DNA from: Roseibium denhamense
GTDB taxonomy: Bacteria > Pseudomonadota > Alphaproteobacteria > Rhizobiales > Stappiaceae
Length of the DNA stretch: 64,000 bases
Direction: 5' to 3'
NCBI RefSeq assembly: GCF_009711415.1
Contig: NZ_SMLZ01000109.1
Location: forward strand, 62,001 to 126,000
Part shown: positions 8,757 to 53,119 of the stretch, in pieces
Position numbering within the stretch: position 1 is the stretch's first letter
Layout of the letters: each line of letters starts with the position of its first letter
The notes under the pieces: model-generated
Databases searched by the model: none
The model's input: only the letters and a program-made list of their open reading frames with translations
Told to the model about the DNA's origin: nothing
Program-made: the position numbers and the translations under genes

Positions 8757-9071
8757 CAAGTAGAAATAGACCTTTTTTTTGAAATTCCGCTGATTCGCAT
8801 GCCTCGCCGAAGCAAGCGCCGCAGATATCGATTTTAATGAATACGGCACTGCCGCACATGCCCTGCTGGGGCAGGGAAATCCCACTTTACGTTGGAGCAT
8901 AAAGTCGCTGTGCCGTTTGACGAAGAGCGCGGCGACCCCACCGGATACCATCCCCCGGGTTGCAGCGACACCCGTGTTTGCGCCAGACACGCAGCCAGTT
9001 CCGCATTGCGAACTGGCTCTGTTTTCAGAAACGTTGCTCCGGCTGTAAAACGTCCGTCATTTGCTGGAAGA
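8757..9071. other. Intergenic gap without recognised gene
   Basis: About 315 bp between the agl operator and the hairpin downstream of the CBS gene. Short open frames cross it on both strands but have no ribosome site or recognisable product. Promoter elements for the leftward agl operon should lie at its left end; nothing else is apparent. Confidence 0.5.
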
Positions 9072-20085: not shown

Positions 20086-20102
20086 TACAAGCGCCGTGCC
20101 AA
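20086..20102 (-). promoter_or_regulatory. Predicted sigma54 promoter of algD
   Basis: Minus-strand TTGGCACGGCGCTTGTA matches the -24/-12 consensus TTGGCACG-N4-TTGCA except for T instead of C at -12. GG and GT are 10 bp apart as required. Predicted start of transcription is near 20075, giving a 27-nt leader before the ATG at 20048. Confidence 0.6.
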
Positions 20103-20494
20103 ACCGGATTGGCACATTAAAGGCAAATAAAAACAGTGATTTACAAAATTCTCACCACTTTCTCTTGTTTGCTGGCCTTTTGATTTTGAAAACAAAAATT
20201 CAAATTCGAACAAAAAAATTTCGGGATTTCGGAAACATGCAAGTTTGCGATCAACCCCGCGCATTTATCAAATGAAAAGCCGATGAAACGCGGCCTATAT
20301 AATAAAGCCTGACAGCCGGATTTGAGGACATCCCAAATAGCGCAACACAATCAGATCGGATTTCGCGAATTCAGAAAGAAAGCTTCCGGAAATCAGAAAT
20401 GATAACGGGCAAAATCGGCAACAAAAGCGCGACCGCAACGGATAGGCATATGTTTTAATTAAGAAAAATTGCCCACGGGACACAGCCACTGCAC
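20103..20494. other. AT-rich divergent control region algD / HAD gene
   Basis: About 390 bp, clearly AT-richer than the flanking genes and without a credible gene. It separates two predicted, divergent sigma54 promoters, so it is where activator sites would be expected. A loose inverted repeat (tgcaagtttgcg, near 20237) is the only candidate I saw. Confidence 0.45.
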
Positions 20495-22005: not shown

Positions 22006-23502
22006 TCAGGAATTCACGGCGACGCCATCGTCATCGGGAGCACCGGTCAGGTCATCTCCACCGGTCTCGTTTTCCTGCGCCGCCCAGATCTCTTTCTTGC
22101 GATAAAGGGTGGAGGGGCTGACCTGAAGCACACGTGCGGTTTTCGGAAGACTGCCGCCACAAGCGTCAATCGTTGCCTCGATTATGCTGCGCTCAAGCGT
22201 TTCGAAGGGTTGACCGAGAGACAGCGTAATTTGCGGCCAGACATCACCCGTGGCGCTGACAATTGATGCGGGCGGACTAGCCGCCTGCGGCACACTGAGC
22301 GGGACGGCTGGCGCTGGTCGGGGAGCTGAGGGTTGACGTCCCTGAAGCGTTGCCAGCATGTCCACCTCGACAATCGGGCCTTCGTTCAGCACCACCAAGT
22401 TGCGGATTGTGTTTTGCATTTCACGGACATTGCCCGGCCAGGGATGGCGCATCAAAACCTCTTCTGCCTCAACAGAAAAGCCTTCGAATGTTTTCCCTTC
22501 TTCGCCAGCAAACTTGATGAGAAAATGCCGGGCCAGCTCAAGGACGTCCGCCCCGCGGGCTCTGAGTGGCGGCAGCCCGATGGGTAGAACGTGAAGACGG
22601 TAATAGAGGTCTTCGCGAAACCGGCCGGCTTCCACTTCTTCTTGCGGGTCCCGGTTGGTGGCGCAGACGATGCGCACATCAACCTTGGTGAGCTTGTCAC
22701 TGCCGACCTTCTGAACCGTTCCGCTTTGCAGGAAGCGCAGAAGTTTGGCTTGCAGACTCAATTCCAGCTCGCAGATCTCGTCAAGGAAGAGAGTGCCGCC
22801 ATCAGCACGCGCCGCAGCTCCATCGCGATCACCCGTTGCTCCGGTAAAGGCGCCTTTCACATGGCCGAAAATTTCAGATTCAATAAGGTCTTTCGGAATG
22901 GCCGCACAATTGAGCGGCACAAAAGGTTTTTTAGCGCGGGGGCTGGATTTGTGGATGGCTTCTGCGCAGACCTCCTTGCCGGTACCGCTTTCACCTGTGA
23001 TGAAGACAGACGCATTCGACCGGGCGACGCTTTCGATCATTTTATAGACAGCGGTCATAGGCAGGGACGAACCGACAAAGCCGTGATTGGCCTTTCCGCC
23101 GGAAGGTTTTCTAACCTCTGCAACGACTTCCGTAAGGGTTTCACGCTCCAGCGCGTTCCGGGTTGTCGTAACAAGCCGCTCTTCAGCCACCGGCTTGACG
23201 ATGAAGTCGTAGGCGCCCGCCTGCATGGCGTCGACTGCGGTCTTGATCGATCCTGAACTGGTCACGACAACAACGGTGACCGGCAGCTGTTCTTCCCGCA
23301 CAGTTGCGAGGACTTCAAGGCCGTTCATATCCGGCAATTGCAGGTCCAATAGGACAACGCTGATCCCGCCCTTGCGGATCTTGGCGAGCGCTGCCTGCCC
23401 GGTCTCCACATGGGTGGTTTCAATTCCCGCACGGGACAGATGATGCTCATAAACAGTTGCAAGCGACAACGTGTCTTCGACAATCAGAACTTTCAAAGCC
23501 AT
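22006..23502 (-). CDS. Sigma54-dependent response regulator (NtrC/LuxO type)
   Basis: 498 residues: receiver domain (1-120, phosphoacceptor in VVLLDLQLPD, KP lysine in YDFIVKPV), AAA+ activator domain (about 140-380: Walker A GESGTGKEVC, the sigma54 contact loop GAFTGAT, Walker B GGTLFLDEI, the arginine-finger region ATNRDPQEEVEAGRFREDLYYRL) and a Fis-type helix-turn-helix near the C-terminus (SLPKTARVLQVSPSTLYRKK). It needs RpoN-type promoters. It lies 23 bp downstream of the hybrid kinase and in the same direction as the alg genes. Probable target promoters carrying -24/-12 elements are inside this window. Confidence 0.93.
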   Translation of the reverse strand: MALKVLIVEDTLSLATVYEHHLSRAGIETTHVETGQAALAKIRKGGISVVLLDLQLPDMNGLEVLATVREEQLPVTVVVVTSSGSIKTAVDAMQAGAYDFIVKPVAEERLVTTTRNALERETLTEVVAEVRKPSGGKANHGFVGSSLPMTAVYKMIESVARSNASVFITGESGTGKEVCAEAIHKSSPRAKKPFVPLNCAAIPKDLIESEIFGHVKGAFTGATGDRDGAAARADGGTLFLDEICELELSLQAKLLRFLQSGTVQKVGSDKLTKVDVRIVCATNRDPQEEVEAGRFREDLYYRLHVLPIGLPPLRARGADVLELARHFLIKFAGEEGKTFEGFSVEAEEVLMRHPWPGNVREMQNTIRNLVVLNEGPIVEVDMLATLQGRQPSAPRPAPAVPLSVPQAASPPASIVSATGDVWPQITLSLGQPFETLERSIIEATIDACGGSLPKTARVLQVSPSTLYRKKEIWAAQENETGGDDLTGAPDDDGVAVNS

Positions 23503-23525: not shown

Positions 23526-26500
23526 TTATGGATCGGGTGCCAAGCCTATTTCCATCTCGTCCGCCAAAGCTTTCACATCTGCTAACGTATCGTCACTTAT
23601 TGAAATCAGTTCGTCCACCCGTGTCAGGGCAGATGCGGTTTTTTCCTCACGGACCAAAGTGTTGATTTCTGCCGCAATCGTCGTCAGGCGTGTTGCGCCA
23701 AATGTCCCGGCAACGCTTTTCAAGGCATGTGTTGCGCGTTCCAGCTGAGTAAAGTCATGCGTTTGCGCCGCCAGACGGGCCGCTTCGCGTTTTTCCCGGG
23801 TATCTGCTTTGAACTGGTTGAGAAGTTTTTCCTGCAACGCCGGCGGCATGTCCGCCAGAAGCACTCTGGCCTCCGACAGTTCCTGATGCGTGGCAGGTGT
23901 TATTGCATGATCAAACGCGCTGGCATGCCTGCGGACATTGCGGGCAATACAGGCGAGAAGGTCCTGCTTCTCAACCGGCTTGGACAGGAAATCCGCCATT
24001 CCAGCCGCAAGAAACCGTTCCCTATCTCCACGCAAGGCATAGGCTGTTAGGGCGATGACCGGCGTATTTGTATTCCGGTGTCCGTTCTGGATATGCCTGG
24101 TCGCCTCGAGCCCATCCATTTCCGGCATAGAGATGTCCATCAAGATACAGTCATAATCGCGGTTTTGGGCAGCGATGACCGCTTCCTTGCCATTGTTGGC
24201 GATATCAATGTCGCATCCGGCCCGCTGAAGGGCATGAGACACTACAATCTGGTTGGTTGCATTGTCCTCCGCCACGAGCACTGTCAATCCATCCGGAATA
24301 TGTTCCTCCAGCATGGCTACTTCCGGCTCCGGCAATTCTGCCTGCTCATCGGCCAGTTCAAGCGGAACACAGAAATGGAACGTGCTGCCGGCCCCAGGCA
24401 AGCTCTCCACCAGGATTTCACCGCCCATCAGGTCCGAGATACGCTTGCTGATGGCCAGACCGAGCCCAGTGCCGCCCTGTTTTTTAGTGTAGCTGCTGTC
24501 GATCGTGACAAAGTCACCGAACAAGCTTTCGTGCCTGTCCTTGGGTATTCCGATACCGGTATCTTGGACAGAAAAGCGGAAGACCGGACGAACCGGGTCA
24601 TCCTTGTCGACGGAGACCGTTATACGAATAGACCCCAATTCCGTGAACTTGACCGCATTGGACACAAGATTGAGCAGCACTTGCCGCAACCGCCCTGCGT
24701 CACTTGTCACAACTTGAGGAACATCAGCCGGATAAATCAACTCCATGCCGATCCCTTTTTCCTGAGCAATCGGCATGAACAGATCGACAATGCTTCTGAC
24801 CACCGTCTTGAGGCGGAAGGGCGCAGTTTCAAGCTCGGTACGTCCGGCCTCCAGTTTTGAGAAATCGAGAATGTCATTGATCAACTCAAGAAGTGACCGG
24901 CCGGAGTCGCGCGCAGTTTTGACATAGGACTTCTGGTCGGGATCAAGATCCGTATCACGCAGCAGGCTGAGGATCCCGAGCACACCATTCATAGGTGTAC
25001 GGATCTCATGGCTCATCATCGCCAGGAATTTGGCCTTCGCTTCATTGGCAGCCTCAGCTTTTTCCTTGGCGTCCCGCAGAGCCTCTTCAGCAGCCTTTCG
25101 CTCGGTAATATCGCGGACATAGCCGAGAAACAGCGGCCCGCGTTCACCCTTGGTATGGCGGATCGCGAGTTCCACGATAATCTGATGGCCCTCCTTGTGC
25201 AGGCCTTCAATTTCGATCCGTTTTCCAAGAACGGGCCCTTCGCCCGTCTTCAGAAACTTTTCCAGTCCGGCATCATGCATGGCCCGGTATTTTTCGGGGA
25301 TGATGTAGTCCGACATCTTTTCCCCAACGATTTCGGCAGCTTTCCAGCCGAACACCTCTTCCGCGGACGGGCTGTAATCCAGAACAGTGCCGTTCCCATC
25401 CATAACGATGACGCCGTCAAAGGATGCGGAGACCACATTGCGCAGCAGGCTTTGGCTACGAACCAGTTCCTGCTCCCGCTTTTTCAATTCGGTAATATCG
25501 ACTCGAAAGCCGACCAAGCCGCCTTCACTTGTGCGGGACTCGATCACCCTGAGCCAGCGGCCGTCATCCAGGTGCTGTTCCATAGGCGCGCCCGGATGCC
25601 GGTGGTTCTGCATCCTGAGCTCCACCCAGTCCTCCAAGGCTTCTCCAGAGACTTGGTATTGCCCCCGCTGTGCCCCGTCCCTGATAATCTCCTCAAATGT
25701 CTTGCCGACCTCGATGAGATCCGCGCTGCGGCGGTAAAATTCCTTGTATTTGCTGTTGCACATGACCAGGCGGTCATCCGCGTCATAAAGCACAAACCCA
25801 TCGGGCAAGGATTCGATCGCATCGACGAGCCGCGTTTCTGCCTGCAGCAGCTTGGCGGCGGCGGCTTTTTGCTCGGTCAGGTCCCGCAAAATGGCCGTAT
25901 AGGTCACCCGGCCGTCCACCACGGTTTTGGACAAGGACAGCTCCACCGGATAGCGGCTGCCATCGAAGCGCCGCCCGGTTACTTCAAATCTTGCCTTGTC
26001 GTCATCGAGCTCCGGCGATGGACCGGCGCAACACTCGAATGGCAATACATTCGCATCGTCTTCAGGCAGGATGTCGCAAATCCGTTTGCCGGACAAATCA
26101 TCGAACGAGGCCACCCCAAACATTCGCAGGGCCGACGGATTGGCGCTCAAAAGATCCCCGCCGGGAGACAGGGTCACCACACCATCCAGCATGGTTTCAA
26201 GGACCGCATTGACCTGCGCCTCACCGGTTTCGGCGCGCGTGATCGCGGCTTGCAAAGCCGCGTTCTTCTCCCGTTCTGCGTCTGCAAGGTCATGAACCCG
26301 TGTGAGTGCTCTCTGGCGCTGAGAAGACAGCACAAGTGTCAAGGCGACAGCGGCAAGGAAGGCAACCCCGAGAAGCACGATCAAACTGTCTATCGAAGTG
26401 ACACCGCCGCCATAGAGCGCGCTTGCCGGCAGTATGACTTCCTGAATGCCCCGGATGTCCCCGACTTCCCAATCGGTCTTGGGAGACTCCGGGTGGGAGT

Positions 26501-27026
26501 TGTGACATGCAACGCAGCTGTCCTCCATCCGAACGGCCCGCGCACTGCGGAAGACGTTTCCGTCGGCTCTCGCTTCAAGCCGCTGATAGGGTTGGTCGGG
26601 AGCTTCGCTAAGAGCCGCCAGCGCTTCACGTTCGAAGCTGTCAAGTTCACGGTCCTGACGCCATGGCCACGGATGATTGGACAACATCCTGATCCGGCTT
26701 GATGCCCCAAGCGCAGCCAGTTCCTCCTCAAGCCCAAGGGTCATGGACACAGGTGCCGGGATCGTCAGGTCTTTGCCATGATAGTCATGGCTGACCGACA
26801 TGTCGTCTGACAGATAGACCTTGTCGATCACTTCGCGCGAGTAGAACGACCGGGTCGCGGTCAACAGCTCGTTTTGCGCTTGTGCAGCGGCCGAGAGGTC
26901 GGCGGTTCTGGCCTTCTGGCCGAAATCGACCGCGATGACGTAGGCAGAGATGGCGGACGCGCAAATGAAAACCAGGACGAGCCAGAACGTTGCATCCTGA
27001 ATCATGCTTACGATCCGTTGCCGCAT
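23526..27026 (-). CDS. Hybrid histidine kinase with haem-motif (DUF3365) sensor
   Basis: 1166 residues. Membrane helix 1 (about 13-33); a periplasmic DUF3365-type domain with a c-type haem motif CVACH at 171-175 (SCVACHNSHPES); helix 2 (SIDSLIVLLGVAFLAAVALTLV); three PAS domains; HisKA ([16 protein letters not shown]); HATPase (NAVKFTELG, DTGIGIP, GGTGLGLAISK); receiver (CILMDISMPEMDG); and a C-terminal HPt (THALKSVAGTFGA). The architecture suggests a redox or gas-responsive phosphorelay feeding the sigma54 regulator next door. The ATG at 27026 gives the cleanest N-terminus; a longer frame reaches 27098. Confidence 0.92.
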   Translation of the reverse strand: MRQRIVSMIQDATFWLVLVFICASAISAYVIAVDFGQKARTADLSAAAQAQNELLTATRSFYSREVIDKVYLSDDMSVSHDYHGKDLTIPAPVSMTLGLEEELAALGASSRIRMLSNHPWPWRQDRELDSFEREALAALSEAPDQPYQRLEARADGNVFRSARAVRMEDSCVACHNSHPESPKTDWEVGDIRGIQEVILPASALYGGGVTSIDSLIVLLGVAFLAAVALTLVLSSQRQRALTRVHDLADAEREKNAALQAAITRAETGEAQVNAVLETMLDGVVTLSPGGDLLSANPSALRMFGVASFDDLSGKRICDILPEDDANVLPFECCAGPSPELDDDKARFEVTGRRFDGSRYPVELSLSKTVVDGRVTYTAILRDLTEQKAAAAKLLQAETRLVDAIESLPDGFVLYDADDRLVMCNSKYKEFYRRSADLIEVGKTFEEIIRDGAQRGQYQVSGEALEDWVELRMQNHRHPGAPMEQHLDDGRWLRVIESRTSEGGLVGFRVDITELKKREQELVRSQSLLRNVVSASFDGVIVMDGNGTVLDYSPSAEEVFGWKAAEIVGEKMSDYIIPEKYRAMHDAGLEKFLKTGEGPVLGKRIEIEGLHKEGHQIIVELAIRHTKGERGPLFLGYVRDITERKAAEEALRDAKEKAEAANEAKAKFLAMMSHEIRTPMNGVLGILSLLRDTDLDPDQKSYVKTARDSGRSLLELINDILDFSKLEAGRTELETAPFRLKTVVRSIVDLFMPIAQEKGIGMELIYPADVPQVVTSDAGRLRQVLLNLVSNAVKFTELGSIRITVSVDKDDPVRPVFRFSVQDTGIGIPKDRHESLFGDFVTIDSSYTKKQGGTGLGLAISKRISDLMGGEILVESLPGAGSTFHFCVPLELADEQAELPEPEVAMLEEHIPDGLTVLVAEDNATNQIVVSHALQRAGCDIDIANNGKEAVIAAQNRDYDCILMDISMPEMDGLEATRHIQNGHRNTNTPVIALTAYALRGDRERFLAAGMADFLSKPVEKQDLLACIARNVRRHASAFDHAITPATHQELSEARVLLADMPPALQEKLLNQFKADTREKREAARLAAQTHDFTQLERATHALKSVAGTFGATRLTTIAAEINTLVREEKTASALTRVDELISISDDTLADVKALADEMEIGLAPDP

Positions 27027-27135
27027 TGTTCTGTCTCCGGTCTGTGTGTCCTGCGAATTCGAAAGACTCTTGCAGTCTTCACGTTTTAGTCTGGTCATTG
27101 GATGTAAAATTTCGCTTTAAGGAAACAACGGCAAC

Positions 27136-29064
27136 TCAAGGTTTTGACGCGATTGGCAGCGCGGCAGGCCTGAACTCGAAGAACGGATTGCCGTTAAAGA
27201 AAGCCTGCCAGCTGTCGTATTTGTAGGTTTTGTGAAGTGCGCAGACGTCTGTGCATCCGTGAATGCTGAGTATCAGCTGGAAATCCGCGTCCGGATCAAA
27301 GAGGTTTGCATAGGCAAAGACCGTGTCGGCCGACTGCACGCCGGGGACTGGGCCGGAAAACCGTTTCTTGAAGGCCTCAGACGGCACGGATGACCACCCG
27401 CCTGCGGGGAACCAGCGGGGACCGGCCGGTCCTGCACCATCCAGATCACGCGGAGTTGCGGCCCCAAAAGTGAGCAGGAAGTCTTCCCGGCTTTTGAGCG
27501 CGGCAATATGGTCGCCGGTCATCAGATCAGGGAATTCGGCGGCGCTCAGCAGCGATATCCCTGCGTGCCCAGTGTCTTCGAAACGCTCGCCGGCACGTTT
27601 TGACGGGGAGCCATCACGGTCTTCAAAAGCCGCCTTTGGCCAATAGCGGAACAGGGCACCATTCTCATCGGCGCTCCATTCGTCATAAAAGCCTTTCACG
27701 ACGGATCTACCGCGCGCGCTCAAGGCAGGATCGGACAAGTCTTTGAGCAACGCGGCCATGGAAACTTGCCAGTTCCAGGGAGCAATGCTTCCCTTGAACC
27801 TGAAGTCGATATCCTTGTTGATCCGGTAGAGCCCGACGGTTGGATCGAAATCCGGCTCGTATTCATTGGCGAGACAGGCCTGTGTTCCGGCAATTCTGTT
27901 AGCAAGCTCAACCGGGCAGCCTCCACCGAGGGCCTTGCAAGCCTTTGCAAGGCTGTTGGCAATCATCGCCTGATTGATCATCAGGGTCATCCGATCGTTG
28001 TTGTTCGTCGCGTAGATCGTTGAACTCCAACCGCAAGAAGGGTTCTGATTGCTCGTACGGCCGTTGACGCCATCTTGAGCTGCAAGGGTGAGACGCATCG
28101 ACTTGCGGGCAAGAGCAGCAAACACGGAATCTCCGGTCTTCTCAAAAAGGCTAGCGAGGGCGCGAAGCCGATAGCTTTGGTTCCAGCTCTGCAGTCCTTC
28201 CGCATCCGACGAGCAGGCGCGCACCTCACCGGTCTGCGCGGCGAGGAGGCCGTTGACCGCATAGTAGAAATTGATGCCGGAAGGAGACCCGGATACTGTC
28301 AGAACGGCTTCGCCGTCAGGACGGTCTGCGCGCGGAAGCGTCATGAAGTCCGCGGTCTCGCTTGTCATGACAGGCGATTCAATGGACCCTGTCGTAAGGT
28401 CTATCCTGTAGATCCCGGCGGTATCCGTGTCTGCACATTCCATGCGGGCCCAGAGCACATCGCCTCGAACCAACACGCGTTCGGGCACGCAGCCCGCAAA
28501 ATCGAGAAGAACCTCGGGCTCTTTGGAAACAAGGCCGCCTGCCCCGCGTTTATGGCGGATAAGCCGCGCCGGTTCGCCTGGCCGGGTGACCAACAGAAGA
28601 GCTTGGGTCTCGGTAAAGCGCAACAGTTTCGCGAGTGTGCCGCGCTTGAATGTGAGCCGGACCACGCTTTCCTGAAGCAGTTCGGTCTGCTTGTCGCCGG
28701 TTTTCCAGGTGCGCATGTGGACCAATGATCCATCGCGGGCGAGACGAATGGTGCCAAGGCGGGCTCCCTCCTGGGCAGGGCCACCGAGATCCCGGATCAT
28801 GCCATCCACCGAGACGGTCGGTTTGTCATCGCCCGAATTCTTCGCGACAACAAGAAGGTTGGACCCGGCCTTCGATACGGTTTCAAGGCACTGGCCGGTC
28901 ACGCCCTTGCGGGTGACATCTCCGCTCTTCAGGTCGACTTCGAGGCCTTGGGCGGGCAGAACCAGAAGGGCGTTTTGAACCGCACCTTCCGGTGCGGCCC
29001 AAGTTGTCGGTGTTCCGGCACAAAGGGCCGTTGAGAAGGCAAGTGTCAGAAAGAGCGAGCGCAT
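27136..29064 (-). CDS. Periplasmic protein of unknown function in the alg operon
   Basis: 642 residues with a Sec signal peptide (LFLTLAFSTALCAGTPTTWA). The N-terminal half (about 25-290) is beta-rich, with repeated short strands and many DG/GD turns. The C-terminal half (about 290-600) is helical, with tryptophan and glycine-rich loops (SCGWSSTIYATNNNDRMTL, FKGSIAPWNWQVSMAALL, RFEDTGHAGISLLSA), reminiscent of (alpha/alpha) toroid lyases and epimerases. I do not recognise the family, and neither the PL5 motif of AlgL nor the beta-helix of AlgG is seen. It follows algI by 13 bp, so a role in trimming, epimerising or escorting the polymer is plausible but inferred. Confidence 0.7.
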   Translation of the reverse strand: MRSLFLTLAFSTALCAGTPTTWAAPEGAVQNALLVLPAQGLEVDLKSGDVTRKGVTGQCLETVSKAGSNLLVVAKNSGDDKPTVSVDGMIRDLGGPAQEGARLGTIRLARDGSLVHMRTWKTGDKQTELLQESVVRLTFKRGTLAKLLRFTETQALLLVTRPGEPARLIRHKRGAGGLVSKEPEVLLDFAGCVPERVLVRGDVLWARMECADTDTAGIYRIDLTTGSIESPVMTSETADFMTLPRADRPDGEAVLTVSGSPSGINFYYAVNGLLAAQTGEVRACSSDAEGLQSWNQSYRLRALASLFEKTGDSVFAALARKSMRLTLAAQDGVNGRTSNQNPSCGWSSTIYATNNNDRMTLMINQAMIANSLAKACKALGGGCPVELANRIAGTQACLANEYEPDFDPTVGLYRINKDIDFRFKGSIAPWNWQVSMAALLKDLSDPALSARGRSVVKGFYDEWSADENGALFRYWPKAAFEDRDGSPSKRAGERFEDTGHAGISLLSAAEFPDLMTGDHIAALKSREDFLLTFGAATPRDLDGAGPAGPRWFPAGGWSSVPSEAFKKRFSGPVPGVQSADTVFAYANLFDPDADFQLILSIHGCTDVCALHKTYKYDSWQAFFNGNPFFEFRPAALPIASKP

Positions 29065-29077
29065 CAGCTGTCTCCGG

Positions 29078-30586
29078 TCAGAAGTTGAAGTAGATGAACT
29101 CGGTCATTTCTGCGAGCCGATAGGTCTGGATCAGCGCCAGTCCGAACAGGACCGAGACACCGAGGGCCCAGCCTGTGGTCGGCTGCCAGCGCACCGGCAA
29201 GAACCCTTCCGAACGGCGCTGAGCAACCAGCTTCTTCAAGCCAAGCACCGGGTTGTACTTCTCAGTGAACTCGATGGCGTTCGGCAGGAGGAAGACGATA
29301 GCGGCAAGAGCAACCATCATGGCCCAAACCTGCAGGGTGCCGCTCAACGCGCTTTCCCAGAGCTTCGGCTCATAGACGGTCGAGAAGCCGGTCATGCCGT
29401 GGATGATGTTGCTGGCACCGTTAAAGCTCTCTGCGCGGAAGAACACCCAGGCAACGACGACGGCAAGGAGCGTGATGCCACGGCTCAGGAGGTTTCCGAC
29501 CGGGCGCGGCAGTATGTTGGGCACATAGCCATTCTTGGACAGGGCATCCCAGCCATGATTGATCGCAAGATATGCGCCGTGCAGACCGCCCCAGAAGACG
29601 AAGGTCCAGCTCGCCCCGTGCCACAGACCGCCAAGAAGCATGGTGATCATGAGGTTGGCATAGCGGCGGATCGGACCACTGCGGTTGCCCCCCAGCGGGA
29701 TGTAGAGATAGTCCCTAAGGAAGTGCGACAGGGTAATGTGCCAGCGGCGCCAGAAGTCGGAGATGCTGGTTGCCTTGTAGGGCGAGTTGAAGTTAACAGG
29801 CAGACGGATGCCGAACAGCCGGGCCAGGCCGAGCGCCATGTCGCAGTAGCCGGAGAAGTCGAAGTAGAGCTGGAAGGTGTAGGCAAGCGCGCCGATCCAG
29901 GCAGCTTCCAGCGGAACACCATTTGTGGTCTCGGCAAGGGAAAAGACCTGGTTGGCATAGGGTGCGATGCCGTCCGCCAGCACGATTTTCTTGAAGAGGC
30001 CGATGGCAAATAGTGTGCTGCCAACCGCAAGGTTCAGGACGAGCTTGTTGCGGAACACCGGCAGCTTGAACTGCGGAATGGTTTCCTTCTGCATCACAAT
30101 CGGACCAGCGATCAGCTGCGGGAAGAACACCACGAACAGCATGTAACGGCCGAAGTCACACTGGATGATGTCACCCTTGTAGGTGTCGATCAGGAACGAG
30201 ATCTGCTGGAAGGTGAAGAACGAGATCGCCAGAGGCAGGACCAGGTTGAGCATCGGGATATCCGCGCCGGCAATCAGATTCGCGTTACCGATAAAGAAGT
30301 CGGCATATTTGAACACCGCAATCAGAGCGAGATTGAAGACGATGCCCGTGATCAGGATGAACTTGTCGCGGACCTGCCGGAGCACCCGGTGAAAACCGTA
30401 GTTGATCACGACAGAACCCAGGAGAAGGGGCAGATAGACCGGGGTCCACCAGGCGTAGAACACCAGCGAGGCAATGGTGAGCCACCAGATAATGCCGTTT
30501 TCCCAGCCCCAGTGACGGAGCACGAGGTAACCGATGAGGACCGGCGGCAGGAACAGGTAGATGAATTCCAGGGAACTGAAAACCAT
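29078..30586 (-). CDS. algI: MBOAT O-acetyltransferase (AlgI-like)
   Basis: 502-residue polytopic membrane protein with about eleven hydrophobic segments. It carries the MBOAT signature with the conserved histidine: MITMLLGGLWHGASWTFVFWGGLHG, preceded by NFNSPYKATSISDFWRRWHITLSHFLRDYLYIPLGG, which is highly typical of AlgI/DltB-like transferases. AlgI passes acetyl groups across the inner membrane to a periplasmic SGNH enzyme; such a partner (32021-33289) is in the same operon. Start ATG 3 bp after the algK-like stop. Confidence 0.92.
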   Translation of the reverse strand: MVFSSLEFIYLFLPPVLIGYLVLRHWGWENGIIWWLTIASLVFYAWWTPVYLPLLLGSVVINYGFHRVLRQVRDKFILITGIVFNLALIAVFKYADFFIGNANLIAGADIPMLNLVLPLAISFFTFQQISFLIDTYKGDIIQCDFGRYMLFVVFFPQLIAGPIVMQKETIPQFKLPVFRNKLVLNLAVGSTLFAIGLFKKIVLADGIAPYANQVFSLAETTNGVPLEAAWIGALAYTFQLYFDFSGYCDMALGLARLFGIRLPVNFNSPYKATSISDFWRRWHITLSHFLRDYLYIPLGGNRSGPIRRYANLMITMLLGGLWHGASWTFVFWGGLHGAYLAINHGWDALSKNGYVPNILPRPVGNLLSRGITLLAVVVAWVFFRAESFNGASNIIHGMTGFSTVYEPKLWESALSGTLQVWAMMVALAAIVFLLPNAIEFTEKYNPVLGLKKLVAQRRSEGFLPVRWQPTTGWALGVSVLFGLALIQTYRLAEMTEFIYFNF

Positions 30587-30589
30587 AAC

Positions 30590-31816
30590 TCAGCCCTCCT
30601 TGTTGCTGATGTCTTGCGGAGTGGTCCGCAGGAGAATGGTGAGATTTGCTTCGTCGGTTTTCTGAAGCTCTTCGAGCAAAGTGGCGCTGCCCTGGTGGCC
30701 ACGGTCGGCACCTTTCCGGGCAAGTTCGAACGCCTTGGTCCGGTCCTGCTCGACAAGCTTGCCCTTTGCGTAAAGACGGCCAAGCTCTTCCATGGCACCC
30801 GGGTGGCCGGCAGACACTCCGCGCTCCAGCAGCTCGACAGCCGCTTCGGCATCGAGGCCGTGTTTTTCCTTCAGATGCAGACGGGCAAGGCCGGTGAGAG
30901 CACCGCCATGTTCCGCTTTTGCAGCAAGTCGAAGCCATTTCAGCGCTTCCTGAACGGTGTTCTTATCGTCGGAGGTTGCCAGCATCATCAGCGCGAGATC
31001 ATGCATGGCTCCGGCGTCGCCGAGGTCGGCAGAGCGCAGGAACCAGTCGCGGGCAAGCGCCCGGTCCGCTGTCATGAATTCTCCGTCCCGGTAGAGCCGG
31101 CCCAGCGTCTTGGCTGAGCTTGCCGATCCATCGCGGGCTTTCTTTTCAAGACCGGCGATTGCGCGCTCGGCCCAGAACAGAGCTTGTTCCGGGTTGGGCG
31201 TAGAGCCATAGCGGCCGTTCAAAAGGATCCGGGCGTAGTTGATGGTGGACGACGGGTACCCGGCAATCGCAGCTTTCTCGTAATGATGAAAGGCGAGGGT
31301 CAGATCCCGCTCTGTGCCGATGCCACGCTCATAGTGTTTTGCGAGTTGAACGTGCGCTTTCGGGTAATCCCAGCCAAGAGACTTGTGGAACCACTGCAGA
31401 GCGATTTCTGCACACCGTTCGCCGGACGAACGCTGGAACAGCCGTCCCAGCTCATAAGCCGTCTCGCCGCGATAAACGAAGGAGTAGCGCACGGCTTCCA
31501 TGAAGACCAGGCGTGCCTGGTCGAGGTCCGCGTCAACGCCCCAGCCGTTCTTGTAGGCCCGGCCCAGGTGGTAAAGAGCAACCGGATGACCATCGCTGGC
31601 AAGCTGGGTCAGGAGATCGGCGGCAGCTTCCCAACGGCCGACTTTCTGAAGGCCGCGCGCCTGTTTGATCATTTCCTCGATAGTAGGATCGATCCGCTCG
31701 GCCTTTGCTGCCGGGCGAACTGCATCGCCAGAGAGCGCTACAGCGCCGGCCCCACCGATGATCGCGGCGACAAAGGCTGCTTTTAGAATGTTTCGGTTCA
31801 ATGGTTTGCGGGTCAT
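30590..31816 (-). CDS. algK: Sel1-repeat protein (AlgK-like scaffold)
   Basis: 408 residues: an N-terminal hydrophobic segment (ILKAAFVAAIIGGAGAVAL) and then a chain of Sel1/TPR-like repeats (LYHLGRAYKNGWG, AYELGRLFQRSSG, AHVQLAKHYERGIG, SAKTLGRLYRDGEF, AMHDLALMML, ALTGLARLHLKEKHG, AMEELGRLYAKGKL). In Pseudomonas, AlgK is an outer-membrane lipoprotein of this fold that connects the synthase to the AlgE pore. Here no lipobox cysteine is visible, so the protein is either signal-anchored or soluble in the periplasm. It overlaps the small upstream gene by 4 bp. The algK label is by fold and position. Confidence 0.75.
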   Translation of the reverse strand: MTRKPLNRNILKAAFVAAIIGGAGAVALSGDAVRPAAKAERIDPTIEEMIKQARGLQKVGRWEAAADLLTQLASDGHPVALYHLGRAYKNGWGVDADLDQARLVFMEAVRYSFVYRGETAYELGRLFQRSSGERCAEIALQWFHKSLGWDYPKAHVQLAKHYERGIGTERDLTLAFHHYEKAAIAGYPSSTINYARILLNGRYGSTPNPEQALFWAERAIAGLEKKARDGSASSAKTLGRLYRDGEFMTADRALARDWFLRSADLGDAGAMHDLALMMLATSDDKNTVQEALKWLRLAAKAEHGGALTGLARLHLKEKHGLDAEAAVELLERGVSAGHPGAMEELGRLYAKGKLVEQDRTKAFELARKGADRGHQGSATLLEELQKTDEANLTILLRTTPQDISNKEG

Positions 31817-32028
31817 TTGGGCAACTCCATTTCAAAGCTCGGCTGATCCCCTTCGGCCGACATTTGCCGGGCCATGGGCTCAGCATGATCAAACAGCCAA
31901 TCGATGCGGTTTGGTTCCACAGCAGTGGTTCCCGGCATCTCGGTGAAGCTTGAGGCGGCAATGGCGCCAATCACAAAACCGGTTACGCAAATCAGGGCTT
32001 CTTCCAGGGTCTTGTTCGACTTAGCCAT
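31813..32028 (-). CDS. Small single-pass membrane protein in the alg operon
   Basis: 71 residues: a short cytosolic lead (MAKSNKTLEEA), one membrane helix (LICVTGFVIGAIAASSFTEM) and a polar, acidic C-terminal tail presumably in the periplasm. The start overlaps the SGNH gene by 8 bp and the stop overlaps the algK-like gene by 4 bp, so it is translationally wired into the operon and very likely real. No family recognised; position suggests a small bridging or regulatory subunit. Confidence 0.75.
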   Translation of the reverse strand: MAKSNKTLEEALICVTGFVIGAIAASSFTEMPGTTAVEPNRIDWLFDHAEPMARQMSAEGDQPSFEMELPK

Positions 32029-33289
32029 CGATTTGCCTCCAGATTCTGCAGGATGTGCCTTCTATCAGCTGAAGGGTGCCTTCGTTGTGGGTTTGGGTGA
32101 TGTCGTCCGGACGCACCGGGCAAGCGAGATCAGCCCGGCGGTCCATCGCCGTTTTGACGCCTGCCTTATCGCTATCGATCACTTGCAGCAGTTCGCCGAC
32201 GATCTTGCGGGCCGGGTTGGACCCGAAGTGATAGGCGTCTGTGAAATTTTTCAGATCCCGGGTAAAACCCGTGTCGAAATCCATGTCCACGACCGGCGCA
32301 AGATTTGAAAGCCGACCTCGGAATTTGTGGTTTGCGGCAGCAAGTCCGAAGTCATTGATGCGCTGCTGCATCTCGGAGATTGTCGGCGGAATGAAGAAGA
32401 TGAGTTCGACATCGTGTTCGTCGCACCAGGCGGCAATCTCTTCGACCATCGCCCACAGGTCTTCTGATTGTTTGAACCGCCGCCAGTCAGCTGCACCATT
32501 GGTGCCAACCTGCTTGGCGAACAGGGACGGGAGATCCCGGTCAATTGCGATGTCCGGCCAGTAGCGCGCCCAGTGGCCCAGACCGAGCCCCCGACCGTGG
32601 TAAACAGCCGGCAAGATCAATGTGCCATTCGGTGTCTGCAAGATGCACTCGTCGCATAAGGCAGGGTCTAACAGCGCGTCGACGGAAAGAGTTTCAAGAC
32701 CGCTGAGTTCACCGGCCTTTGCTTGCGAAATTGGGGACAGCGAAAGTTTCTCGGCGGCCTCGAAGACTTTCGGGTAGCGGTCCTGCAAAAGCGCCCAACC
32801 GGTCTTGGCCACAAACCAGTTCGTGTAGTAGCCGAACGGATCGTTTGCGAGTGAGATCGCCTCCGGCACGCGGTTCATGCCACCCTTGAACCGGGCATCC
32901 ATGGACCGAAGCGGCAAGCTGACGATCAACGTTTCCAGGTCTGCGTTTTCCTTCAGATACTGGAAGGTGTCGTAGATCTCAAAAACGGTCGCCCCGCCAT
33001 AGGCGAAATTGTAGACATCATTGCGTCCGAGTTCCTGCCAGTATTTGTCTTGAAGCGCGCGCGCACGGCTGTCGCCCAGAACAACCGTCGGTGCCTTGAT
33101 CCGCGGATACTCGATCATCTTGTAAAGCGGATAGTGCGCCTTGACGCTGATTTCCGTTTTGTCGAGCCCAAGATCGATGAACTGGTTGTGGTTGTAGGCG
33201 TCAACGACACCGTTGAACGCAACCGGAGCCAGTGCGAGGCAAGCGGTCAGGGTCAATGCAGCAGTGTAGAGTTTCGGTGTCAGCTTCAT
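32021..33289 (-). CDS. algJ: Periplasmic SGNH acetyltransferase-like protein (AlgJ/AlgX-like)
   Basis: 422 residues with an N-terminal signal sequence or anchor (KLYTAALTLTACLALAPVAFNGVV). The block I motif GDSRA (Ser at residue 74) and a C-terminal block with Asp and His in TDAYHFGSNPAR form the SGNH triad. GGATVFEIYDT and IFFIPPTISEMQQR (here LIFFIPPT) also fit AlgJ/AlgX/DHHW-like O-acetyltransferases. It would transfer acetyl groups delivered by AlgI to the polysaccharide in the periplasm. One SGNH protein here replaces the separate AlgJ and AlgX of Pseudomonas. The ATG at 33289 gives a clean signal peptide; a frame upstream to 33343 exists. Confidence 0.82.
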   Translation of the reverse strand: MKLTPKLYTAALTLTACLALAPVAFNGVVDAYNHNQFIDLGLDKTEISVKAHYPLYKMIEYPRIKAPTVVLGDSRARALQDKYWQELGRNDVYNFAYGGATVFEIYDTFQYLKENADLETLIVSLPLRSMDARFKGGMNRVPEAISLANDPFGYYTNWFVAKTGWALLQDRYPKVFEAAEKLSLSPISQAKAGELSGLETLSVDALLDPALCDECILQTPNGTLILPAVYHGRGLGLGHWARYWPDIAIDRDLPSLFAKQVGTNGAADWRRFKQSEDLWAMVEEIAAWCDEHDVELIFFIPPTISEMQQRINDFGLAAANHKFRGRLSNLAPVVDMDFDTGFTRDLKNFTDAYHFGSNPARKIVGELLQVIDSDKAGVKTAMDRRADLACPVRPDDITQTHNEGTLQLIEGTSCRIWRQIDG

Positions 33290-33762
33290 AGCTGTGGCCC
33301 TCGTTTGATCCAATTGGCTGGATCCTTTCAAGAGCTGGGCCAACTCAGCTTTCGAATTATTATCCCAATTAATTCAAATAGTTGTGATTTTTTTGCATTT
33401 TTGGAAACTGGTAGGACTTAGCAATTGCGTAAGAGCAGTTTTGCAAATTGAAAAGGTCTCTGAGTGTGTTGGAGTCCTGGGTGTCGAACACCCTGTAAGT
33501 GTCACGCCGGACGGAGCGGAGCGAAGTTCCGGGGCCCACTCGCAGTTCTGGATGCCAAAGCCGGAGTTCCCTACCAGTCAATCGGCATCCGCCAGTTATT
33601 GCGCGTCAGGCTCTGCAAATGAGTTGCCGCGGGTCTAACCTCGTTCGCCCGGGGTAACCGCAGTGCCGGGCACAGTTTCTCCAACCTTATTTCTTTCCTT
33701 GGAGAACGGAACATTTCCCGTCCCCCCGAAAACAGTTGCAGTGTCCCGTCACAGTCAGCCAA
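33290..33762. other. Gap inside the alg gene run
   Basis: 473 bp between the alg8 stop and the SGNH gene with no credible gene. It contains an 8-bp inverted repeat ttctccaa/ttggagaa (33677-33684 and 33699-33706), possibly limiting read-through, and a -24/-12 match at 33613-33626. The gap suggests that the run is two transcription units. Confidence 0.5.
33611..33628 (-). promoter_or_regulatory. Weak sigma54 promoter candidate before the algJ-like gene
   Basis: Minus strand CGGCAACTCATTTGCA: GG at 33626-33625 and GC at 33614-33613 are 10 bp apart, with GGCA and TTGCA matching consensus. The upstream T is missing and the leader to the ATG would be over 300 nt, so this is weaker than the algD and alg44 candidates. 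Confidence 0.35.
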
Positions 33763-35355
33763 TCAGGCCGGCAAGCCGAGAATGTGGGCGATCATGAGAC
33801 CACTCGGCGGTTCGATGAGACCCGCCATCAGGCAGACACCGACAAACAGCATCGTCACATAAAGAAGGGTGAGATAACTCGCCATGAGGTTCTGCAGGGT
33901 GGCGAGCAGCCCGTCGCCTTCACCTGCGCGCTGGTCACCGCGGTTGGACCAGCGTTGTTTTGACAGGCGGAAGATGCAGTAGACCTTCACCGACGCATTG
34001 ATCAACTGGTTGAAGTAGAGAATGAACGGATAGCTGAGGTCCACTTTGCGGGCGTACCGATAGAGAAACAGCGACAGCAGCATCCGGGTTATGCAGATGA
34101 AGACCACATATCCGAAGATGTAGTAGGGGTCATAGAGAAACGTCGTGCAGACCGCGAGCACCGGGCTTACCAGCATGGTCCACATGGAAACGCGCTGGTC
34201 CAAAAGGCACCACCAGATAAAGAACGGCATCCGGCCCGGCCCCAATGCAAGGGCGCGAGAGCCATTGCGCAGCATGTTGCCAGACCAGCGGCGGAAGTTT
34301 TGAACCATCCGGTCCATGCCGGAGCCTTCAATGACTTCAACCGTGTAGCCCATGGCGTCGGGCACATAGAGCATGCGGCAGCCGGATTGGAGCATGTAGT
34401 ACCAGGTGCTTTTGTCGTCGCCCGACAGGAAACGGAACTTCCCCCACAGCCAATGCTCGAGATGATCTGCCTCGAGAAGACGAATGAACTTGAGCTTTGT
34501 CAGGTGGTTCGCCCGGAAAACGGACATCCGTCCCGTCAGGGTCAGAACCCGGCCGGAGAGCGAGTGGGATTGCATGGCTAGCCGGCGCTGCGCAAAGCGC
34601 ATGGTCAGCCAGTTGGCAATCCAGCGCGGGCCGATGCAAAGCACTTCTTCATCCGTCGTGCAGGCTTGCAGGTCCGGGTAAAGCTTGAAGAGCGGCAGGC
34701 ATGCACCAACAGCATTTTTGGCCAGAATAAAGTCACCATCCATGAAAATGATGAGGTCGTCGTCTTCTACGTCACCCCGGCTCATCGCACGCAAAACAAG
34801 GCCAATCGCCAAACGCTTGCCGGGCTGGTTCTGCCGGACGACATGAAGGGTCACGTCAAGATCGGACCACTCCCGGGCCAGAAGATTGGAGATGAGGTCT
34901 TCGTCATACCGGTCGCCAGAACCGAGCCAGATCGTGCCCGGCACACCGGCGTCCCGGATTTCGCGGCAGATCGACCGGATCACCTTTTCCGTGATGTCCC
35001 GGTGTTCCTTGTAGGTCGTCATCATGAAGTGGAGGTGGCGGGGACGCCAGCCGTCCTCCCACACCTTCTTCCCGGCGTCCCGCATGGACGGGTAGACAAA
35101 CTTGCCATAGATCCAGGCCCGCACGGCGTGAGTGAACCACCAGCCATAGCGCCAGACGCCGAGGATCCCGATCACAAAGGTGATTTGTTTCGTCGCCGGG
35201 CTGAAGAAGACGTTCTCAAAGGTGGTCACCCCGACAAAGCAGAGGCCGAAGTAAAGGCTGATCTGGAACAACGCAAATGGGGTCCATTTGGCCAACCCCC
35301 TCGGTTGATGCGTGATTTCATCGACGTTGAAATCCTGCTGCAGGGACCGGCTCAT
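33763..35355 (-). CDS. alg8: Mannuronan synthase catalytic subunit (Alg8-like)
   Basis: 530-residue inner-membrane GT2 polymerase that would join mannuronate from GDP-mannuronate. Matches to Alg8 are extensive: IGILGVWRYGWWFTHA, FMDGDFIL (DxD), MRFAQRRLAMQS, SGRVLTLTGRMSVFRA, KFRFLSGDDKSTWY, FRRWSGNMLRNGSRAL (RRW of the QxxRW region), LLDQRVSMWT and ILYFNQLINASVKVY. Hydrophobic helices lie at the N-terminus (about 25-70) and in the C-terminal third. The ATG overlaps the alg44 stop by 4 bp (ATGA), so catalytic and c-di-GMP-binding subunits are co-translated. Cellulose-synthase-type GT2 enzymes are the alternative, but the motif wording is that of Alg8. Confidence 0.9.
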   Translation of the reverse strand: MSRSLQQDFNVDEITHQPRGLAKWTPFALFQISLYFGLCFVGVTTFENVFFSPATKQITFVIGILGVWRYGWWFTHAVRAWIYGKFVYPSMRDAGKKVWEDGWRPRHLHFMMTTYKEHRDITEKVIRSICREIRDAGVPGTIWLGSGDRYDEDLISNLLAREWSDLDVTLHVVRQNQPGKRLAIGLVLRAMSRGDVEDDDLIIFMDGDFILAKNAVGACLPLFKLYPDLQACTTDEEVLCIGPRWIANWLTMRFAQRRLAMQSHSLSGRVLTLTGRMSVFRANHLTKLKFIRLLEADHLEHWLWGKFRFLSGDDKSTWYYMLQSGCRMLYVPDAMGYTVEVIEGSGMDRMVQNFRRWSGNMLRNGSRALALGPGRMPFFIWWCLLDQRVSMWTMLVSPVLAVCTTFLYDPYYIFGYVVFICITRMLLSLFLYRYARKVDLSYPFILYFNQLINASVKVYCIFRLSKQRWSNRGDQRAGEGDGLLATLQNLMASYLTLLYVTMLFVGVCLMAGLIEPPSGLMIAHILGLPA

Positions 35356-36950
35356 GTCGCGTCTCCGAGGTAACCTGAGATCAGCCGCAAGACCTTGTTT
35401 GCGCGGTACCGCTCAAAGTAGACGGTGACCGGTGTTCCGGATTGAGGAAGGGTGCCCCCCTTTGAGATCAGATCGACCTTTGCAGAACGCGCATCCGGTG
35501 CGCGGAACCGGTGCATTTGTGTGGTCTCATCAATGAACCCGTCTGTGCGGCTGATCATGTCTACTGTTGCTTCGATCCAGCGGTCTTCGGCCGGCACATA
35601 AATTCGGGCCGGGCTGCCTTTGCGGACCTGAGTGATTTCTTCCTGGGTCAGGAACGCTGTGATAACCCGGTGGTCGCTTTCCTCCAGAACCACAAGCGGG
35701 GCGCCGGCTTTAAGCGTTTGACCATCGGCTGCAATCACATCCACAACAGCGGCATTGGAGCCAAGCGTCACCGGCATCATGTCCGGTTGAACGCGCAGCT
35801 CTTCCAACAGCTTGGTGCGGAAGTCGACTTCCTGCTGCCAGCGCGCCACTTCGGCAATGCGTTCGGACTTCAATCCGCTGAACTTGTCGCCGTTCAAGAT
35901 GCCAAAGTTTCCGCCTTCAGAGCCCAATTTTTCCAACTCGGCAACGTGAATGATGTGTTTTTCAAGCGCGCTCTTGGCCGTGGCCAACTCAAGCTGTGCC
36001 GTGGCGAGCACATCCCGTTTCAAGTAGCCTTGTGCGAACAGATCCTTGTAGCGGTTCAACCGGTCCTGGGCCGTTTCAACGGCAAGCTCTAGTGTGACGG
36101 TTTCTGCGCGGGCCTGGCGCAGATCATTGGCAGCGACAAGGCTGTAGCCTGTTTCGCGGTCGGCTTCGACTTGCAGATAAAGCTTGTGCTCGGAGAGCTC
36201 CACCTGCGCCTGCATAAGCGCGGTTTCGGCTTTGCGGATTTCCGAAATCAGCGCGTCGTTCTCGATAAAGGCGATCGGAACTCCAGAAGCTGCAACATCA
36301 CCGGTGCGCAGGCTCAGACCGGTGAGACGTCCGGTCGCCGGTGCCGTGACCTCATAACGTTCGGCACTGACGACTGCGGTCGAAATTTCCAGGCGGAAGA
36401 GCGTTGCGAAAATGTAAATCCCGACATACCCGAAGACGGCAATGCCAAGGGCGAAATAGAAGAGCGACATGACGATCTGCTTGATCGGCCAGCGGCGGAC
36501 GGGGATTCCCTGTGCCGGGTTTGGGTCCGGTTTGGTAGGCACCGGTGTGACCGGTGTATCGATGCGAACAATCGTGTCGGTGACGTCTGTCATCTTGCCG
36601 CGGACGAGATCCTCGACAAAGTGTTGCATCAACGCCGTTTCCCGCTCTCCAAGGTCTACGAAGCGGAAAGCGACCTCTTTGGTGTCTTCACTCGAACGGA
36701 CGACTTCAGCGCTGGCCTTCAAGGTGATGTTGAAGCCCTGGAACGGCAGGGTGCACAAGAGAGGGTGGTCCGATCCGACCTCAGGAAGCGGCGCAGAAAG
36801 GCCGGAGATCCGGCAACCGCCGAGCCCCCAATCCGCAGCGTCAAAAGTCTGATCACCAAGGGTGACGCGCATCGGCGCTGTTACCCTGTAGTGCAGCCTT
36901 TGGCTGGGCCTTTCATGAATGATGTCCACTTTTGCAACCTTTGATGTCAT
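35352..36950 (-). CDS. alg44: c-di-GMP-binding polymerase/export subunit (Alg44-like)
   Basis: 532 residues: an N-terminal PilZ domain (1-120) with the R18-LHY-R22 pair and D40-W-G-L-G-G, then one membrane helix (IVMSLFYFALGIAVFGYVGIYIF) and a periplasmic HlyD-like part with two lipoyl-type half-motifs (YEVTAPATGRLTGLSLRTGDVAASG; AADGQTLKAGAPLVVL) around a long coiled coil. This is the Alg44 architecture. The PilZ D/NxSxxG serine is glycine here. ATG 36950 matches the length of Alg44 proteins but lacks a ribosome site; a GTG at 36929 has AAAGG upstream and fits the predicted transcription start better. Frames continue to 37025. Confidence 0.88.
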   Translation of the reverse strand: MTSKVAKVDIIHERPSQRLHYRVTAPMRVTLGDQTFDAADWGLGGCRISGLSAPLPEVGSDHPLLCTLPFQGFNITLKASAEVVRSSEDTKEVAFRFVDLGERETALMQHFVEDLVRGKMTDVTDTIVRIDTPVTPVPTKPDPNPAQGIPVRRWPIKQIVMSLFYFALGIAVFGYVGIYIFATLFRLEISTAVVSAERYEVTAPATGRLTGLSLRTGDVAASGVPIAFIENDALISEIRKAETALMQAQVELSEHKLYLQVEADRETGYSLVAANDLRQARAETVTLELAVETAQDRLNRYKDLFAQGYLKRDVLATAQLELATAKSALEKHIIHVAELEKLGSEGGNFGILNGDKFSGLKSERIAEVARWQQEVDFRTKLLEELRVQPDMMPVTLGSNAAVVDVIAADGQTLKAGAPLVVLEESDHRVITAFLTQEEITQVRKGSPARIYVPAEDRWIEATVDMISRTDGFIDETTQMHRFRAPDARSAKVDLISKGGTLPQSGTPVTVYFERYRANKVLRLISGYLGDAT

Positions 36951-36965
36951 CGGCACCAATGTGTT

Positions 36966-36982
36966 CGCAAGGACGATGCCAA
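36966..36982 (-). promoter_or_regulatory. Predicted sigma54 promoter of alg44-alg8
   Basis: Minus strand TTGGCATCGTCCTTGCG: TTGGCA and TTGC with GG (36980-36979) and GC (36968-36967) exactly 10 bp apart. Predicted transcription start is near 36955, which leaves 5 nt before the ATG at 36950 or 26 nt before the alternative GTG at 36929. Confidence 0.6.
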
Positions 36983-37087
36983 CCGGGATTGTCCGGGCCG
37001 AGACCTGCAAATGAGATCCGCACAAACGATAGGCAATTGAAAAATATAGAAAATTTCAAAGGCTAGACTCAGCATCCTGGTCACTCT

Positions 37088-37100
37088 TTGCAAATTGCAA
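37088..37100. promoter_or_regulatory. Predicted activator site upstream of alg44
   Basis: TTGCAAATTGCAA fits TTGCA-WWW-TGCAA, the published LuxO-type site, with six-base arms if the flanking T and A are counted. It is nested in a second inverted repeat, tcctgg (37075-37080) and ccagga (37104-37109). It lies about 140 bp upstream of the predicted transcription start, the usual position for an NtrC-type activator. Confidence 0.45.
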
Positions 37101-37172
37101 ACCCCAGGAGGACTGTGTGGACTGGGGCCAGTTTCTCATTATGCAAAGGGCAGAGCTGAAGAACGGGGAAGG

Positions 37173-44973: not shown

Positions 44974-45252
44974 ATTCCAATAGCGGATGCAGGAGCATAT
45001 TTGTGCCCTCACAGTTTCTTCTCAAGCATTCCTGCAATTTAAAGTAAGTGGAAAAATATGCATTTCTCAAAGTTGTAATTTTCAAAAAACTGCAAACAGC
45101 ACTCTAGTAAAATTTGACAGAATCTGCTTCCGATAAAATTGTATCATGCACGGAAACTCGCACGGCGTGTAGGAACGGCTCTTAGAGCGAACGGCATAGA
45201 GACTGAAATCAGGAGAAGAATCTGTGAACCTCCGCTCCGGAGCCTCCGAGTG
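44974..45252. other. AT-rich leader of the kinase gene
   Basis: About 280 bp, unusually AT-rich around 45030-45130 and then GC-rich. The open frame of the kinase extends back to 45139, but that segment (MYHARKLARRVGT...) looks like translated leader. No clear promoter elements were singled out. Confidence 0.4.
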
Positions 45253-52840: not shown

Positions 52841-53119
52841 TATTTTTGGGGAAATTGATGCATCAAGACTTTCTATTAATCGCAGAAAGCATCTCCAAAC
52901 GGATCATTTTTAATTCAGTAAAAGGATCAGTTCAACATAAGTTTATAGAATTTTCGTGTAACCTAGCGGCAAGGTTGAAGCTGATCGGTCAATGACATAT
53001 AAAATTTGAAACATGTCAAATCTGCTTATCCGCCGCGACGGCGGTGCGCAACGGCCGAGTTTTTTTGGCCTTGCTGGCTTTGGGGCAATAAAGCTGGGTT
53101 AATCGTCGGGGCAACAAAC
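52841..53119. other. Divergent gap, peptide operon / GGDEF gene
   Basis: About 280 bp, AT-rich in the left two thirds and GC-rich near the GGDEF gene. It should contain the promoter of the rightward gene. The open frame of that gene runs back to 53006, but this part (many W, C and R) does not look like protein of the family. Confidence 0.4.

Follow-up and report, generated by a model that had tools for sequence, protein, structure and literature searches.

The window, i.e. the whole 64-kb stretch of DNA that was analysed (G000:C1:62001-126000), belongs to the 4.8-Mb genome of a member of the Roseibium/Labrenzia group, and contains a run of alg-type genes together with genes for a hybrid kinase and a regulator:

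35352..36929, minus strand: alg44-like gene (PilZ and HlyD domains, 525 aa), with a GTG start at 36929
33763..35355, minus strand: alg8-like glycosyltransferase gene, overlapping alg44
32021..33289, minus strand: conserved cluster gene, with an ATG start at 33289
27136..31816, minus strand: genes for an AlgK-like Sel1 protein, an AlgI-like MBOAT acyltransferase and a protein in the AlgJ position
23526..27098, minus strand: hybrid sensor kinase gene (Tll0287-like, PAS, HisKA, receiver and HPt domains), adjoining the regulator gene
22006..23502, minus strand: gene for an activator of the LuxO/SypG family (receiver, AAA+ domain with GAFTGA, Fis-type HTH)
18639..20048, minus strand: algD-like GDP-mannose 6-dehydrogenase gene (PDB match)

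The dehydrogenase encoded at 18639..20048 matched PDB entry 1mfz (Pseudomonas AlgD) with 399 bits, while the next match, a UDP-glucose dehydrogenase, reached 253 bits; assignment to the latter type was discarded because of this difference in score. Because the enzyme is nearest to AlgD and stands with an alg-type gene run, the cluster is referred to here as alginate-type, a name which is taken from the genes. No match in Pfam or in the PDB was found for the product of 32021..33289. Alg44 is 95% identical to that of Labrenzia sp. R4_2, the closest named relative. The RTX/DUF4114 protein encoded upstream of alg44 (37237-39132) keeps its position in the relatives. Elsewhere in the window there are adjoining TfuA-like and YcaO genes (49846-52493), which form a peptide-modification pair, and, at 45139-48813, the gene of a large protein that combines kinase and AAA ATPase domains; it stands beside an NmrA-like gene and is followed by a GGDEF-FHA gene at 53006.

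The following elements were located upstream of alg44:

36966..36982, minus strand: sigma-54 -24/-12 box TTGGCATCGTCCTTGCG of alg44, kept across the Roseibium alg44 promoters
37027..37044, minus strand: IHF-like bend element, degenerate (one mismatch in the window copy), between the sites and the box
37087..37101, minus strand: candidate proximal activator site B, TTTGCAATTTGCAAA, centred about 139 bp before the predicted start
37133..37147, minus strand: candidate distal activator site A, TTTGCATAATGAGAA (TTCTCATTATGCAAA on the plus strand), 46 bp from site B

A -24/-12 box before alg44 had been proposed in the initial annotation, and TTGGCATCGTCCTTGCG is indeed present on the minus strand at 36982-36966. 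Full-length alg44 orthologues were found in 22 of the 45 genomes of the genus that were searched, and their upstream regions were aligned after removal of near-identical rows. The TGGC and TTGC of the box are invariant in all 22 Roseibium alg44 promoters. Over the core TGGCAY/TTGC, the share of the commonest letter is 0.98, with 8 of the 10 letters invariant; over the spacer it is 0.46, so that the spacer is as free as the remaining promoter region (0.47). The GG-N10-GC core with TGGCAY/TTGC, by which a sigma-54 promoter is recognized, is thus found in 22 out of 22 cases, and a box is also present before alg44 in the order-level relatives L045, L048, L050 and L051. RpoN is encoded in the genome (TIGR02395, 434 bits vs a cut-off of 277).

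The distance from the box to the HERP codons of alg44 is 65-68 bp in all the 22 genomes; with the GTG/TTG start in use (36929 here), this implies a short leader, predicted to be of 26 nt from a transcription start at about 36955. Two other start codons, ATG at 36950 and TTG at 37025, were ruled out, because the orthologues begin at the V/L/M codon preceding DIIHERP.

As for the TTGCA palindrome that had been reported at 37088-37100, TTGCAAATTGCAA is found exactly there, inside a 15-bp palindrome TTTGCAAATTGCAAA (37087-37101). From its centre to the predicted transcription start downstream there are about 139 bp, a distance which is usual for the sites of LuxO-type activators and agrees with the activator-like distance that had been claimed. 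The palindrome is of the LuxO type, as described, but it is not single: an inverted second copy lies 46 bp farther up. The arms tcctgg/ccagga, in which the palindrome had been said to be nested, occur in this strain only and are absent from all the 21 relatives, and are therefore probably due to chance.

Site A is an inverted copy of site B, both conforming to TTTGCAnWWTsgrAA, and their spacing is 43-46 bp in every genome with alg44. The TTTGCA half of site A is invariant (22/22); in site B the inverted TTTGCA half is conserved, and TTTTGCAA is invariant in the 21 relatives. The commonest-letter share is 0.87 for site A and 0.91 for site B, as compared with the 0.47 of the rest of the promoter region. 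Between the sites and the box, the motif WWTCAANNNNTTR, the IHF consensus, occupies a constant position in 11 of the 22 promoters, and an IHF-like bend element is regarded as a likely component of the alg44 promoter. Site B matches exactly (37088-37100) the LuxO operator TTGCAWWWTGCAA (PMC10162802), and site A, read as TTCTCATTATGCAAA on the plus strand, matches exactly the upstream activating sequence of SypG, TTCTCANNNTGMDWN (Ray et al. 2013 as quoted in PMC10162802).

It should be noted that, taken singly, the elements are at the level of chance. In the window, the palindrome with up to two mismatches gave 5 matches vs 2.7 expected, and the box (TGGCACN5TTGCW, up to one mismatch) also gave 5 vs 2.7; the palindrome alone, or the box alone, was therefore discarded as evidence. 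The elements exceed chance when taken together and across species. The pattern of the A/B pair occurs once in the 4.8-Mb genome and is absent from the reversed controls; among the genomes of the genus it was found in 22 of 45, and these coincide exactly with the genomes that have alg44. The only additional match is a stray second one in G044, itself a cluster-bearing genome. These data support the assignment of the region upstream of alg44 as a putative sigma-54 promoter with a paired enhancer.

The alg44 promoter sites of the 21 relatives, without those of the window, were used to build a site matrix, which was then scanned over the window. The five top places were 33440 (the best match of all), 37087, 37133, 33392 and 20178. 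The two new locations, i.e. a second promoter before the gene following alg8 and a third one before algD, both lie between genes and are accompanied by a -24/-12-like box:

33440..33454, plus strand: candidate activator site TTTGCAAATTGAAAA at the second promoter (matrix match)
33392..33406, plus strand: second copy at the second promoter, TTTGCATTTTTGGAA, 48 bp from the first (matrix match)
33327..33343, minus strand: -24/-12-like box TTGGCCCAGCTCTTGAA before the gene that follows alg8, with a predicted 27-nt leader
20178..20192, minus strand: weaker candidate activator site TTTTCAAAATCAAAA before algD (matrix match)
20086..20102, minus strand: -24/-12-like box TTGGCACGGCGCTTGTA before algD, predicted leader about 27 nt

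In the relatives, the TGG...TTG of the second-promoter box is kept, mostly 108-111 bp after the start of the site. In the algD box, TGGCAC and TTGT are invariant in 20 of the 20 aligned promoters; the activator site of algD is weak (matrix score 17.6) and has no clear partner copy. Both boxes have TTGA or TTGT at the -12 end instead of TTGC. The predicted leaders, that of algD being counted along the sequence, are of 26-27 nt at all three promoters, the predicted starts lying near 36955, 33316 and 20075. The same layout, a candidate site plus a box, recurs at three promoters of the cluster. An insertion of about 300 bp is present at 33465-33755, in the gap between alg8 and the next gene and just upstream of the activator sites of the latter; it is common to G004 and G008 and missing in the close relatives G007 and G001, and the genome contains one full copy of it and a part of about 44 bp at three other places.

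Matrix matches of at least 17 bits numbered six in the 30-kb cluster; 114 kb taken from elsewhere in the genome yielded none, and column-shuffled matrices gave an average of 0.02 matches. The pattern TTTGCAnWWTnnnAA was found at 16 places genome-wide, and a good box at 50-170 bp accompanies only those in the cluster; for the tested TTTGCA sites outside the cluster, no box scoring at least 7 was found at 50-170 bp. A genome search for further TTGCA sites had been suggested in the initial annotation; the TTGCA palindromes examined outside the cluster are without a -24/-12 box in range. Because boxes were found only by the cluster sites, the regulon seems, as far as a pattern search can show, to be confined to the cluster. 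Elsewhere in the genome, TTGCA palindromes near flagellar-looking genes (fliF- and flgD-like; C1:54010 and 54624, i.e. L008:12010 and 12624) were rejected as candidates, having no -24/-12 box in range; a CtrA-site-like TTAA-N7-TTAA motif lies near the first of them.

The regulator of the NtrC/LuxO type, which the same gene run had been said to encode at a distance of 13 kb, is found there, 13.4 kb away (22006..23502). When it was compared with all the NCBIfam models, LuxO was the best (588 bits, the next being NtrC with 382), and the first PDB matches were LuxO as well; the NCBIfam score is below the cut-off of the LuxO equivalog NF041946 (800 bits). In a tree of 54 EBPs, in which long branches nearby call for caution, the regulator falls in a 47-row clade (100/99) with Vibrio LuxO and Vibrio paralogues, inside an alphaproteobacterial subclade (100/95), while the genome encodes eight other EBPs, of which seven fall outside this LuxO/SypG clade. 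The clade is an open fork, with the Vibrio paralogues in a different branch from the regulator; the one Vibrio paralogue that was checked adjoins glycosyltransferase genes. The regulator was not filed as LuxO because of the failed equivalog test, nor as SypG because the tree does not demonstrate orthology, and is classified from its sequence as a member of the wider LuxO/SypG clade. Its recognition helix, SPSTLYRKK, has the core SPSTxYRK in common with that of Vibrio LuxO (SPSTIYRKL), the Vibrio paralogues having SPSTVYRKK; this fits the matches of the sites to TTGCAWWWTGCAA and TTCTCANNNTGMDWN.

Orthologues of the linked regulator (77-95% identity) were found in the same 22 genomes and in G001, whose contig starts within alg8 and for this reason lacks alg44 and its promoter. 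In G032 the regulator orthologue (C44:429138-430619) lies on a contig different from that of alg44 and contains two in-frame TGA codons, which reflect either decay or an assembly error. With its LuxO-like class, its helix core and its co-occurrence with the sites, the linked regulator is the likely protein to bind them, as had been anticipated. In the order-level relatives, whose Alg44 is only about 33% identical, a site and a box were found in five of the six genomes with a linked LuxO-like gene (G122, G110, G199, G129 and G136), and no site was found in G131 (L128); nor were sites found in G102 and G125, which have alg44-alg8 and no linked LuxO-like gene. In other alphaproteobacteria (L189, L192 and L194), LuxO-like genes adjoin TTTGCA palindromes with -24/-12 boxes, and polysaccharide export genes stand beside them in L189 and L192. 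In L192, three TTGCA palindromes, 22 bp apart (8812-8870), lie between two divergent -24/-12 boxes, flanked by the polysaccharide export gene and by an H-NOX gene next to the LuxO-like regulator gene; the H-NOX gene recalls the HnoX-HahK input to SypG (PMC12369376).

Taken together, these data make it very probable that a dedicated activator of the LuxO/SypG family turns on the alginate-type genes through RpoN at three promoters of the cluster; it is called dedicated because the same regulator would drive two cluster promoters in addition to that of alg44. Counting against this reading are the weak site before algD, the TTGA or TTGT ends of two of the boxes, the result for G131, the imperfect IHF-like element of the window and the presence of another EBP that shares the helix core (C82:152452). 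The latter has the helix SPSTIYRKR and ranks second in the genome by LuxO score (437 bits), and a single site may be used by two EBPs, as is the case for LuxO and SypG at qrr1 of V. fischeri (PMC10162802). That this protein (G000:C82:152452-153759), alone or jointly, rather than the linked regulator, binds the sites appears nevertheless unlikely: matches of its class (about 48-57% identity) are present in most genomes of the genus, including those without cluster and sites, whereas the linked regulator tracks the sites.

Instead of activating directly, the linked regulator could also be mainly a repressor, or could work by way of a small RNA, considering that Vibrio LuxO controls most of its targets through Qrr RNAs. 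However, the distance of the sites from the -24/-12 boxes is that of enhancers, the protein retains GAFTGA, and no Rfam family scored above threshold in the 64-kb window, so that we regard this as very improbable. It is scarcely credible that the sites are occupied by an unrelated repressor or nucleoid protein, with another sigma factor in use at alg44 and its -24/-12 match incidental. AT-rich inverted repeats are common operators, and each element singly is at chance level, but the box core is 98% conserved at a fixed distance with its spacer free, three promoters show the same arrangement, and no sites were found in the clusters that lack the EBP gene.

Starting from direct activation by the linked regulator, the sites, boxes, spacing, conservation, co-occurrence and regulator clade described above lead us to infer the following sequence of events. 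The regulator 22006-23502 would probably receive its phosphate from the HPt domain of the neighbouring hybrid kinase; its dimers would sit on the two inverted TTTGCA sites, near -139 and -185, and form an AAA+ ring. The IHF-like bend would then allow a looping contact with the RpoN polymerase at -24/-12, and transcription of alg44-alg8 would follow. The same regulator would drive the promoters of the gene after alg8 and of algD, so that the Alg8-Alg44 synthase pair, the subsequent gene set and the precursor enzyme AlgD would be produced together. Binding of c-di-GMP to the PilZ domain of Alg44 may represent a second, post-translational gate on polymerization.

No published account of LuxO-type control in alphaproteobacteria, or of alginate regulation in Roseibium, was found in the open-licence papers that were searched. 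A recognizable operator, a regulator and a predicted polysaccharide product are here linked in marine alphaproteobacteria, and the apparent control of alginate-type genes by a relative of LuxO and SypG suggests that such regulators govern polysaccharides well beyond vibrios. The operator is near enough to the LuxO/SypG form to be used for regulon prediction across genomes. It may also be asked whether vibrios derived their quorum-sensing regulator from one that controlled polysaccharides. It is conceivable, although we would put it at somewhat less than an even chance, that LuxO/SypG-type regulators, with the same operator throughout, are an old and widespread family which in Alphaproteobacteria and beyond serves basically for the sigma-54 control of exopolysaccharide clusters, and that the LuxO of quorum sensing is a specialized vibrio branch.

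In Pseudomonas, alginate is controlled by AlgU, AlgB and AlgR at algD, AlgB being a protein of the NtrC family. The system proposed here is similar in that algD and alg8/alg44-type genes would be governed, and differs in the activator subfamily and in the sites, consisting of a -24/-12 box with LuxO-type enhancers. With the LuxO/qrr system it shares the operator TTGCAWWWTGCAA, the -24/-12 box and a nearly identical recognition helix, and the qrr1 promoter of V. fischeri likewise has two LuxO sites (PMC10162802); in contrast to that system, the predicted targets are structural genes, and no Qrr was found in the window. In the syp locus of V. fischeri, the hybrid kinase SypF, which has an HPt domain, is the phosphodonor of SypG (PMC10162802). 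The present cluster differs from syp in belonging to an alphaproteobacterium and in having the synthase-dependent genes algD, alg8, alg44, algK and algI, and no syp glycosyltransferases. What it has in common with SypG/syp is a receiver-bearing sigma-54 EBP that belongs to the LuxO clade, a pair of upstream sites, the distal one (site A) fitting TTCTCANNNTGMDWN, a polysaccharide locus as the predicted target and a hybrid kinase with an HPt domain; by all signs, the regulator works like SypG.
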